Positions 13,588-16,625 of a DNA stretch of 22,745 nucleotides are shown here, piece after piece. Under the pieces are notes generated by a model, which saw only the letters and a list, made by a program, of their open reading frames with translations, had not been told where the DNA came from and did no database searches. Numbering within the stretch: the first letter of the stretch is position 1; the number at the start of each line of letters is the position of its first letter. This DNA is from an uncultured Spirochaetaceae bacterium (GTDB lineage: Bacteria; Spirochaetota; Spirochaetia; Treponematales; UBA12059): assembly GCA_938004315.1 (NCBI GenBank), contig CALKWG010000275.1, forward strand, positions 1 through 22,745, written 5' to 3'. The translations under genes and the position numbers were made by a program.

Positions 13588-14865
13588 CTAGTCCAGGTAG
13601 TACGACTTGCCGATATCCTTGCGGAACCACGCGCCTTCGAAGCGGAGCTCCTTGGCGGCCTCGAGGGCGCGGGCGTGCGCCTCGAAATAATCGCCGCCTA
13701 AGCCCACCACCGTGAAGCATCGGCCGCCGCCGGTGAGAAGCCGCCCGGCGGGATTCCTGGCGGTCGCGGCGTGGAACACCAGGCGGCCCGGGCCTTCCTT
13801 CGGGAGCGCTTCCACCGGTATACCCTTGGGGTAATCGCCCGGATAGCCGGGGGCGGCGACGGTGACGCCGACGGCGGCCCCTTCGCGTATGCTCGGCCGC
13901 AGGCCGGCCACGACGCCGGTCGCCGCCGCCTCGAAGAGGTCGCACATATCGTCCTTCAGAAGCGGCAGGAGCGACTGCGTCTCGGGGTCGCCCCAGCGGA
14001 CGTTGTACTCAAGGAGTTTGGGTCCGTCGGCGCAGACCATGACGCCGAAGAAGAGCACGCCGCGGTAACCTAGCCCCTCCTTCTTCATCTGCCTGAAGCT
14101 CGGCTCGACGATCTCCCGGTCTATGCGCTCCATCAGGGCGGCATCGGCGGGCGGGACGGGGCAGAGCGCGCCCATGCCGCCCGTATTGCGCCCGACGTTG
14201 CCTTCGAGAGCCTTCTTGTGGTCGGCGCAGGCGGGCAACAGGACGTAGCCGTCCCCGTCGCTCAGGGCGAAGACCGACAGCTCGTAGCCTTTAAGGAATT
14301 CCTCGACGAGGAGCTCGTCGTCGGCCAGGACGCCCTTGGCGAAACGGCGTAGCTCGTCGCTATCGTCGGATTCGAAGACGCCCTTGCCGGCCGCCAAGCC
14401 GCTCTTCTTCAGCACCAGGGAACCTGCGAAGGGCGCTCCGGGCGCTAGGCTCGAGCGGGTGGCCGCGAGCCACTTGTCGAAATCGGCGTAGGCCTGGAAG
14501 CGCGCGGTCGTAGCCGTTGGTATGCCGGCGCGGCTAGAGAACGCCCGCGCGAAGGATTTATTCGACTCTAAGGCGGCCGCCTTGGCGCCCGGGCCGAAGA
14601 CGGCGGCCCCCGCCTCGCGGAGCGCGTCCGCGACGCCGGCCGCCAGCGGGGCTTCCGGGCCGACCACGACGAGGCGCGCGCCGGAGGCCCGATAGGCCTC
14701 GACGACCGTCGCGGGATCGGCAGGATCGCCCGGCAGGTTCTGGGCCAGCTCCTCGGTGCCCGCGTTACCCGGCAGGCAGAAGAGCCCCGCGTTGCGCTTA
14801 CTGCGCTCGAAGGCCCAGGCGAGCGCGTGCTCCCGAGCCCCGTTTCCTAAGATCAATACCTTCAT
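13588..14865 (-). CDS. purD: Phosphoribosylamine-glycine ligase (GAR synthetase)
   Basis: A 425-residue protein of standard length. It ligates glycine to 5-phosphoribosylamine using ATP, the second step of IMP synthesis. The N-terminal domain begins [15 protein letters not shown] and continues [17 protein letters not shown]. The ATP-grasp region includes [15 protein letters not shown], the [14 protein letters not shown] strand and the late [16 protein letters not shown] motif carrying metal and substrate ligands. A C-terminal domain follows. The ATG has GCGGAGCG just upstream. It is the last gene of the purF-M-N-D series, but 225 bases of non-coding DNA holding a hairpin island separate it from purN, so its expression may be uncoupled. 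Confidence 0.96.
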
Positions 14866-14886
14866 GAACGCTCCGCTTCGGCTAGC

Positions 14887-15036
14887 TTAGCAGGGTGCTG
14901 ACAAAGGCGAAAGCGCCTTTGTCAGCAGCTTCATTAATGTGGCTATTGCGTAGAAAACCGCAAGGTTTTCGAGCAATTGCACTGCATGGTGATGACAAGC
15001 ATCGAGTTTGTCATCACCATGGTAGGGTCCCATCAT
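14887..15036 (-). CDS. Possible 49-residue peptide within the hairpin island (doubtful)
   Basis: A reading frame from ATG 15036 crosses all three hairpins and ends at TAA 14887. The peptide begins MMGPYHGDDK, has a HHH cluster at residues 15-17, a hydrophobic middle (LLENLAVFYAIATL) and ends LSAPC. No ribosome-binding site is evident. Such frames often arise because the repeat happens to lack stops; I have a vague impression of similar peptides annotated in termite-gut treponemes but cannot verify it. I list it so that it can be tested, not as a confident gene. Confidence 0.2.
   Translation of the reverse strand: MMGPYHGDDKLDACHHHAVQLLENLAVFYAIATLMKLLTKALSPLSAPC
14896..14927. repeat. Perfect 14-bp hairpin, 4-base loop (island hairpin 1)
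   Basis: TGCTGACAAAGGCG pairs perfectly with CGCCTTTGTCAGCA around an AAAG loop. It lies 30 bases upstream of the purD ATG on the purD-coding strand. No T-run follows on either strand, so it is not a standard terminator. Confidence 0.8.
14945..14977. repeat. Hairpin with GCAA tetraloop (island hairpin 2)
   Basis: The upper stem GAAAACC/GGTTTTC is closed by a GCAA loop (a GNRA type on the plus strand), then a small internal loop, then a lower stem ATTGC/GCAAT. The interrupted stem and tetraloop are typical of folded RNA, although the same would arise from an imperfect DNA palindrome. Confidence 0.7.
14985..15021. repeat. Perfect 14-bp hairpin, 9-base loop (island hairpin 3)
   Basis: CATGGTGATGACAA pairs perfectly with TTGTCATCACCATG around a nine-base loop; a G.T pair could extend it by one. 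Its inner arm shares TGACAA with hairpin 1, so the two may be related in origin. Confidence 0.8.
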
Positions 15037-15090
15037 ACCAAGTTGAGATTGACGTTTCTAGCGCCGGACTTCGGAGGGGCCTGCGCGGGC

Positions 15091-15648
15091 TTAGCGCAGC
15101 CCGTCCAGCAGCCCGACGACGACCCGGGGATACAAGCTATGCTCAAGCTCGTGGACGGCCGCCTCCATCGCCTCTAAGGTCGCCGCCCGAGCTACCCGTC
15201 CTTGAACCAAGAGCGGGCCGGTATCCATGCCTTCGTCAACGTAGTGGACGCTGACGCCTAACTCGGCGTCGCCGGCCTCCCAGGCCCGCTCGATAGCGTG
15301 GGCCCCCGGCCAAGCCGGCAAGAGGGACGGGTGCACGTTGACGAGCCGGCCGCGACGGCGCGCGACGAAGGCGGGGCTTAAGAGGCGCATGAAGCCGGCC
15401 AAGGCGACCACGTCGGTCCCGGCGGCCTCGAGCGCGGCCTCGAGCTCGGCCTCGGCCTCCTCGCGCGGCCTACCCTTCCAGGGGACGAGGGCGGCCGGCA
15501 CCGAGAGGCGGCGCGCGCGTTCGAAGGCGTAGGCCTCCGGCCTATCGCAAACCAGGAGGCAGACCTCGTGCCCGGCCGCGCGCGCCGCAGTCGCCAGGGC
15601 TTCGAAGTTACTCCCGTTGCCGCTGGCTAAGACCGCGAGCCTGGCCAT
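15091..15648 (-). CDS. purN: Phosphoribosylglycinamide formyltransferase (folate-dependent)
   Basis: A 185-residue protein. It transfers the formyl group of 10-formyltetrahydrofolate to GAR, the third step of IMP synthesis. It starts with LAVLASGNGSNFEAL (phosphate-binding loop). The catalytic residues N104, H106 and D142 lie in NVHPSLLPAWPGAHA and VDEGMDTGP, each two positions before the E. coli N106/H108/D144. The frame is open upstream to 15855, but that part overlaps purM; ATG 15648 begins at the family's normal N-terminus, 14 bases after the purM stop, with GGCGG before it. Confidence 0.95.
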   Translation of the reverse strand: MARLAVLASGNGSNFEALATAARAAGHEVCLLVCDRPEAYAFERARRLSVPAALVPWKGRPREEAEAELEAALEAAGTDVVALAGFMRLLSPAFVARRRGRLVNVHPSLLPAWPGAHAIERAWEAGDAELGVSVHYVDEGMDTGPLLVQGRVARAATLEAMEAAVHELEHSLYPRVVVGLLDGLR

Positions 15649-15662
15649 GAGCCGCCCGCCGC

Positions 15663-16625
15663 CTAAGCCCGGGCCAGGCGGCCCATACGGAAGGCCTCGA
15701 TGCCCTTCCGCGCCGCGTGCGCCAGGAGCTCGTCGGCGTCGCGCGCCTTGACGACCATGGCTATCCCCACGCCCAGGTTGAAGACGCGGCGCATCTCGTC
15801 CTCGGAGACGCCGCCGCCCTTCTGGATGCGGCCGAAGATCGCGGGCCGCGCCCAATCCCAGCTGTAATCGCCCTTAAGGCCCGGGGGCAGGACGCGCTCG
15901 AAGTTGCCGTCCAGGCCCGAACCGGTGATATGCGCCGCGCCGAGCACGAGTCCCGTGGAGATAAGCTCGGAAAGCTCGCGCACGTAGATGCGCGTCGGCG
16001 TCAAGAGCTCGGCCCAGGCCTCGTCGTCGCCTTCTGGCACGCATTTGCGGGCCAAGGAGTAGCCGTTGGAATGGACGCCGCTCGAGGGCAGGCCGATGAC
16101 GGCATCGCCCTCGGCCATGAGCGCGGTCTTGGGTAGGATGTCGTCGCGGTCGACGATGCCGGCGCAGAAACCGGCCAGGTCGACGTCGTCCTCGTCGTAG
16201 ACATCGGGCATCTCGGCGGTCTCGCCGCCGGTAAGCAGGCAGCCGGCCTGCTCGCAGCCGACGATGACGCCGCCTATGATGGCTTGGAGCTTGGCGTCGT
16301 CGATCTTACCGCAGGCTATATAATCGAGGAAGTTCAGGGGCTTGCAGCCGCAGACGATGAGGTCGTTGACGTTCATCGCGACCAGGTCGATGCCGATGGT
16401 ATCCCAGCGCCCTAAGCGCTTGGCCACGAGGAGCTTGGTGCCCACGCCGTCGGTGGTGCTCATGAGCACGGGGTCGCGCATGCCTAGGGCCGCCTTGATG
16501 GACAGCCCGCCGGCGAAGCCGCCTATGCCCCGGTCCACCGCCGCCGAGCTTCGGCTCCGGATGAAATCGGCGAAGCGGTCGCCCTTCTCCATGTCCACGC
16601 CGGCGCTGCGATAATCGATTGCCAT
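15663..16625 (-). CDS. purM: Phosphoribosylformylglycinamidine cyclo-ligase (AIR synthetase)
   Basis: A 320-residue protein, slightly shorter than the usual ~345. It closes the imidazole ring of AIR with ATP, the fifth step. Family motifs in order are DYRSAGVDMEKGD at the start, GGFAGGLSI, MSTTDGVGTKLLVA, NDLIVCGCKPLNFLDY, LTGGETAEMPDVY, GLPSSGVHSNGYSL, HITGSGLDGN and FNLGVGIAMVV. ATG 16625 was chosen over the upstream open frame because AGAGGAG lies five bases before it and the sequence becomes family-like there. It lies 44 bases downstream of purF in the same direction. The FGAM synthetase (step four) is not in this cluster. Confidence 0.95.
   Translation of the reverse strand: MAIDYRSAGVDMEKGDRFADFIRSRSSAAVDRGIGGFAGGLSIKAALGMRDPVLMSTTDGVGTKLLVAKRLGRWDTIGIDLVAMNVNDLIVCGCKPLNFLDYIACGKIDDAKLQAIIGGVIVGCEQAGCLLTGGETAEMPDVYDEDDVDLAGFCAGIVDRDDILPKTALMAEGDAVIGLPSSGVHSNGYSLARKCVPEGDDEAWAELLTPTRIYVRELSELISTGLVLGAAHITGSGLDGNFERVLPPGLKGDYSWDWARPAIFGRIQKGGGVSEDEMRRVFNLGVGIAMVVKARDADELLAHAARKGIEAFRMGRLARA

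Follow-up and report, generated by a model that had tools for sequence, protein, structure and literature searches.

The low-G+C island between purN and purD in the window (the whole stretch of 22,745 nucleotides that was analyzed) is very probably an old and slightly degraded copy of a Spirochaetales MITE that an IS5-family transposase moves in trans and whose hairpins have been kept as structure. The MITE reading follows from the existence of dispersed copies with unrelated flanks, from YTAR target duplications, and from ends like those of an IS5-family insertion sequence (IS). The element has the features of a MITE, namely, 139 bp without coding capacity, terminal inverted repeats, a target duplication (three of four bases alike in the window copy), and dispersed copies. 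MITEs are commonly taken as IS ends around a meaningless middle. In the present element, the terminal sequences vary while palindromic ends and a middle hairpin with a defined internal loop persist, and this persistence despite differing ends makes selection on MITE structure and transposase switching testable. A literature search covering titles and the beginnings of abstracts, with subscription papers mostly outside its reach, retrieved no description of the element, and the accessible part of a 2024 review of prokaryotic MITEs contains neither "spiroch" nor "hairpin" (PMC10969869).

The source of the window is spirochaetal, since its PurD is 72% identical to PurD of SPCK01000289, from a Spirochaetales MAG, and spirochaete MAGs also account for the next three matches. 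The purine genes are arranged in the order purF-purM-purN-purD, all on the minus strand. A 225-bp gap containing three hairpins separates the stop of the purN open reading frame (ORF) at 15091 (15091 to 15855; true start uncertain) from the start codon of purD at 14865 (13588 to 14865), and the element lies 65 bp from purN and 21 bp from purD. The sequence-only reading had described, between purN and purD, a low-G+C island made of three inverted repeats and devoid of any coding family or known RNA consensus, and each of these points was confirmed. Two perfect 14-bp stems and, between them, a 7-bp stem with a GCAA loop are present; G+C falls to a minimum of 0.47 at the island (150-base windows), compared to 0.62 to 0.80 in the island-free windows from 14000 to 16000; the only overlapping ORF, a mechanical one of 119 residues (14895 to 15254), has no Pfam match at an E value of ≤0.1; and no Rfam family reached its gathering score in the window. 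The fold of the island exceeds chance by far on both strands, with −88.2 kcal/mol for a stretch of 186 nt (z score of −9.56) and a z score of −7.84 for the opposite strand, none of 200 shuffles being as low in either case. The CTAGC direct repeat that had been proposed as the border (14882 to 14886 and 15058 to 15062) proved to be a chance repeat: homology to other copies stops at 15025, so the second CTAGC, 32 bp beyond the element, is not its boundary.

The whole element, including both end tetranucleotides, extends from 14887 to 15025 in alignments with other copies and is on the plus strand in the orientation of the family model, R1. The window copy scored 148.8 bits with R1 in cmsearch (E value, 9.5e-37) and is itself part of the model alignment. 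In the family, the terminal inverted repeats are of 15 bp (consensus CAGGNTGNTGAMAAA), and each end forms one arm of a hairpin. In the window, the left repeat (CAGGGTGCTGACAAA, 14891 to 14905, plus strand) was delineated from aligned copies and IS5-type ends, and the right repeat (CATGGTGATGACAAA as read on the minus strand, 15007 to 15021) from aligned copies; the two are identical, by reading, at 13 of 15 positions. They are bordered by the tetranucleotides TTAG (14887 to 14890), as expected from the family rule YTAR, and GTAG (15022 to 15025), which shares three of four bases with TTAG. TTAG and GTAG are likely the boundary repeat of the window copy, a degraded YTAR duplication, and the imperfection of this duplication speaks against our best explanation. 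The plus strand contains three hairpins. Hairpin 1 (14896 to 14927; arms 14896 to 14909 and 14914 to 14927) and hairpin 3 (14985 to 15021; arms 14985 to 14998 and 15008 to 15021) have perfect 14-bp stems identified by inverted repeats and covariation. Hairpin 2 (14942 to 14980) consists of an outer stem (14942 to 14949 and 14973 to 14980), in which seven of eight pairs are formed by reading, and a perfect 7-bp inner stem (14953 to 14959 and 14964 to 14970) closed by the GCAA loop. The two stems are separated by an asymmetric GNA/GA internal loop, with GTA on the 5′ side (14950 to 14952) and GA on the 3′ side (14971 and 14972).

Dispersal was demonstrated in the genomes of relatives, in two sets defined as the relatives of G001 and those of G005. 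Several diverged copies are present in G001, the closest relative, and BLAST matches at an E value of ≤0.01 were found in 10 of the 58 genomes of the G001 set, G001 included, with a best match of 87% over 139 bp in G017. The number of copies per relative ranged from one to about 150. In the alignments, the similarity between copies spans 14887 to 15025, and the flanks beyond these positions are unrelated, except in one orthologous-looking pair (G017 and G011), as predicted for a mobile repeat. An exact 19-base end motif was present in 11 of the 58 genomes, with 163 forward and 149 reverse matches in G005, whereas the reversed pattern, used as a control, had no match in any of the 58. The plasmid and phage collections had no match to the window copy, and the plasmid collection had none to a G005 copy. 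R1 marks as element copies repeats that would otherwise be taken for ordinary spacer. One locus (L152, 3551 to 4531) consists of near-identical tandem units of about 422 bp with three family-A copies. Single-hairpin copies with YTAR-like tetramers on either side were seen in L070, L162, L165, L166, and L152 (1591 to 1639), the two tetramers being identical in L070 only and one base apart in the other four. Since the inner arm of each hairpin repeats the opposite end in direct orientation, slippage between the two could leave a single-hairpin remnant.

The flanking tetramers were identical in 43 of 49 end pairs (family-A pairs among the matches listed, pairable among the first end-motif places per genome), whereas 10,000 shuffles of the end pairs gave 13.8 on average and 27 at most; since the search pattern demanded YTAR at each end, this count tests the agreement of the ends and not the YTAR rule. 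The 23 nonpalindromic tetramer pairs included 18 direct repeats and one inverted repeat. The target tetramers were CTAG, CTAA, TTAA, and TTAG, and mostly the same tetramers bordered the copies found by BLAST. The IS5 duplication is given as YTAR in the accessible part of one article (PMC10359306), and CTAG is given as the IS5 target in that of another, which itself reports 8-bp repeats (PMC10379815). YTAR includes the stop codons TAA and TAG; an insertion preference for stop codons was considered and set aside as indistinguishable from ORFs cut by insertion.

An end-motif scan of viral contigs returned nine stretches. One of them (L173) is a complete IS5-family IS of 1.5 kb with CTAG adjoining CAGGGTGTTGAAAAA-type ends on both sides, and the ends of the element (CAGGNTGTTGAAAAA) match both of its ends. 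Its 367-residue transposase contains DUF772 and DDE_Tnp_1 domains and scores 266 bits with the IS5-family model NF033581 (cutoff, 140). At an E value of ≤1e-20, this protein had a match in only 1 of the 194 relatives of G005, namely, G069, whose transposase is 54% identical to it and scores 270 bits with NF033581 (cutoff, 140); the single visible end of the latter IS (CAGGCTGTTGAAATTCC) is flanked by CTAT, which is not YTAR. PF05598 was present in 53 of these 194 relatives. Among 30 PF05598 loci scanned, an end close to the transposase was found in L180 only (one end, flanked by CTAT, with NF033581 above the cutoff), and L182 had a one-mismatch end motif alone, without a partner end. The 10 draft genomes that bear the element were searched for PF05598, for DDE_5 (PF13546), and for PF01609, and none had a match, save for a fragment below the PF01609 cutoff. 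An autonomous IS5-family partner was accordingly found alongside the element in none of these 10 genomes, G005 among them. Draft assemblies can lose multicopy ISs, and the partner may have been lost from these assemblies or may be extinct in the genomes. From the likeness of the ends, we infer that an IS5-family transposase, acting in trans, was most likely responsible for moving the element. Such a DDE transposase would recognize the 15-bp ends and insert the element at YTAR, duplicating these four bases.

Several known repeats resemble the element in part, as far as the accessible parts of the articles cited here allow the comparison. RUP from Streptococcus pneumoniae, associated with IS630-Spn1, is likewise short, noncoding, and multicopy, with ends matching those of an IS and a preferred target (PMC2229807); the spirochaete element differs by its YTAR target, its IS5-like ends, each of which is a hairpin, and a conserved third hairpin between them. 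CIR, from Caulobacter and its relatives, likewise has a linker between two long inverted-repeat arms, is said to differ from other bacterial repeats, in which the stem-loop is formed by pairing of the 5′ and 3′ ends, and is of unclear mobility (PMC2229807), whereas the spirochaete element has three stems and a target duplication. ERIC and Correia (NEMIS) repeats are small MITEs reported to affect mRNA (PMC2229807); the spirochaete element is made of three separate stems. Compared to the IS5-family ISs themselves (NF033581; L173 and L180), the ends are alike and the YTAR target is common to L173, but the element is only 139 bp long, has no transposase gene, and has palindromic ends.

The MITE- or REP-like nature suggested by the sequence-only reading was upheld for its mobile MITE half, by the many copies, unrelated flanks, target duplications, and IS-like ends, and not for its REP-like half. 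REPINs consist of two REP hairpins in inverted orientation and owe their mobility to a Y1 tyrosine transposase (RAYT), and the element resembles them as a multicopy inverted hairpin pair, although, to judge from the accessible parts of the two articles, it departs from them by its YTAR duplication and inconsistent GTAG tag (PMC3733652, PMC3116915). The pair of inverted hairpins is separated by a spacer and single hairpins exist too, as in REPINs; Y1_Tnp was detected in 9 of 15 genomes tested, including 5 of the 10 that bear the element (G001, G008, G011, G017, and G052). The other five (G005, G012, G013, G020, and G026) yielded no Y1_Tnp; a scan of 27 Y1 loci revealed the family-A end only as two weak matches with at most two mismatches (L112 and L115); and CTACC, the GTAG-like motif beside hairpin 1, is missing from some copies. 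To our knowledge, REPIN/RAYT elements do not generate target duplications, which the end pairs above display. Given the target duplication and the many-copy genomes with no Y1_Tnp match, membership of the REPIN/RAYT group is highly improbable.

The stems covary strongly. In 37 family-A copies, 88.1% of the cells of the alignment were paired, compared to 33.9 to 43.8% when partners were slid, and 23 of 43 pairs were changed on both sides, as opposed to a mean of 14.9 upon shuffling (0 of 500 shuffles as high), relatedness among the sequences inflating such counts. The compensatory changes anticipated for a structured sequence were thus found, and they reach the middle hairpin, outside the terminal repeats. 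In hairpin 3 of the window copy, two positions differ from the closest relatives on both arms (alignment columns 104/136 and 109/131). Covariation of this kind could be devoid of functional meaning if template switching at replication perfected palindromes by copying changes from one arm to the other, and the perfection of both 14-bp hairpins in the window copy, even where they depart from the relatives, fits this possibility. Template switching would, however, erase the 3x2 internal loop of hairpin 2. With a relaxed parser, 78 of 105 distinct copies had GNA/GA as their best 3x2 loop and nine more had a loop close to it (50/63 in family A, 5/5 in x, 15/20 in B, 6/6 in C, 1/1 in E, and 1/10 in D); with a stricter parser that disallowed stem mismatches, it was found in 52 of 105 (30/63 in A, 1/5 in x, 10/20 in B, 6/6 in C, 4/10 in D, and 1/1 in E). 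These counts are to be read knowing that both parsers force a 3x2 loop, that copies were picked with the structure model, with BLAST, or by their end motifs, and that many are near identical. In a control, the relaxed scan retrieved the loop from 30 of 37 real A1 cores and from 2 of 296 letter-shuffled cores. The inner stem of family D comprises two pairs only and the parser mostly fails on it; by reading, most D copies have GCA...GA. Template switching as the sole source of the covariation is thus possible, if rather doubtful. We infer instead that selection acted on the structure, above all on the middle hairpin. Each end would double as an arm of a perfect hairpin, with the third hairpin and its GNA/GA loop in between, and joint changes in the two halves of the arms would retain the structure. 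This structure may serve the element itself: it would be selected for persistence of the element, through folding of the transcript or of single-stranded DNA, and not for purD.

R1 is a covariance model derived from family A, and among 194 relatives of G001, 32 had matches to it at an E value of ≤0.001. In a control with 35 genomes, the spirochaete G003 had no match and 1 of 34 genomes of other groups was matched (G211; 26.3 bits; E value, 5e-4), the weakest of the 32 matches (G144; E value, 7e-4) being no better than this one. R1 retrieved families with other ends, namely, B (GAGGCTCTTTCAAAA), C (TAGTGTCTGTCCATAA), and D (TARGGAARCNCTGATTAA), as well as a single E copy and five x copies whose outer hairpins are mutually unrelated by eye. 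Copies of A and B coexist in G001. The duplication of family B is of 4 bp and varied in sequence, with 11 of 20 pairs exact, compared to a shuffle mean of 0.65 and a maximum of 5; the nine misses include at least one tandem copy (in L281) that had been anchored on the adjacent copy. In this locus (L281, 590 to 878), two copies of family B follow each other head to tail and are bordered by AGCT. The ends of family D match those of ISs of 1.2 to 1.3 kb in viral contigs (L428, L430, and L437), and the L437 IS encodes an IS5-family transposase of 333 residues. End patterns of B and C revealed no convincing autonomous IS in the viral contigs, and the core pattern had no match there. All 33 folded copies had three stems in the same order, on a common plan: a hairpin, a linker, a middle hairpin with the GNA/GA internal loop, and a hairpin.

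Families B, C, and D may be convergent, that is, unrelated MITEs that chanced on three hairpins, and we regard this as a serious possibility, although short of an even chance. A sequence-only HMM of the A core found all five x copies at an E value of ≤1e-4 and had no significant match to B, C, or D copies; an apparent B match in L156 was discarded, the match being a family-A copy in the same locus. R1 scores structure and hence selects three-hairpin sequences, and only 1 (relaxed parser) or 4 (strict parser) of 10 D copies yielded a GNA/GA loop. Convergence is harder to reconcile with the scores of the fetched B to D copies, all at 51.7 bits or more with R1 (about 52 to 73) compared to 26.3 bits for the best control, and with the identical order of the stems and the GNA/GA loop in most B and all C copies. 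All the families may descend from a single ancestor, but sequence alone joins only some of them. We tentatively suggest a single lineage whose conserved three-stem structure with the GNA/GA loop would be the functional part, and whose ends would have changed repeatedly to suit different transposases. If so, the end-bearing stems were rewritten on both arms each time, and the structure was conserved when the ends were not. Two similar copies, L288 (532 to 671; G016) and L291 (549 to 686; G019), have outer hairpins that look mutually unrelated and are possibly immobile or domesticated forms.

The structure could also be explained by a regulatory RNA, either acting in cis on purD or processed from the pur mRNA, with spread being secondary. 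The strong plus-strand fold, the covariation, the GNRA loop, and the conserved purine internal loop would suit such an RNA. However, both the GNRA and the GNA/GA motif are on the plus strand, which is antisense to the pur operon, no terminator-like site was predicted in the element and purD region of the window, and, besides the lack of Rfam families mentioned above, Rfam yielded only weak matches far below the cutoffs (miRNA models and naRNA4) for the window copy and 10 other loci. Of 74 copies put through a rough ORF test, 53 were located between two called genes without overlap, 19 overlapped a called ORF, and two had one neighbor missing. For the 53 copies, the upstream gene was sense in 28 cases and antisense in 25 in the orientation of the element; this lack of a clear orientation bias fits better with a selfish element than with a part of an mRNA. 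A regulatory RNA is accordingly an unlikely origin for the island, and we retain the IS5-type MITE.

The purN-purD site differs between relatives, as revealed by comparing 19 purine-operon loci. purN adjoins or overlaps purD in L002, L218, L219, and L221 and, by reading, in L220 and L222; the spacer is short in L003. A gene of roughly 170 to 280 residues lies between purN and purD in L001 (the L212 genome), L213, L216, and L004, i.e., in the three genomes closest by PurD plus L004. The products share GLAFLIEQAR, and tblastn found no match to this gene in the window. In the remaining loci, purN was not found beside purD. The search for an empty site was thus partly successful: element-free purN/purD junctions exist in relatives, but no bare site was found among the close relatives examined. 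Directly upstream of purD, L004 (5420 to 5570) has another inverted-repeat island, which has no match to R1 and is apparently unrelated. In the window, a promoter-like match on the minus strand (15032 to 15060; TAGAAA-17-TATGAT, with TG ahead of the second box) reads into the element and purD; two promoter-like sites were seen in the region for 0.2 expected. An effect of the element on purD is possible, as a candidate only.
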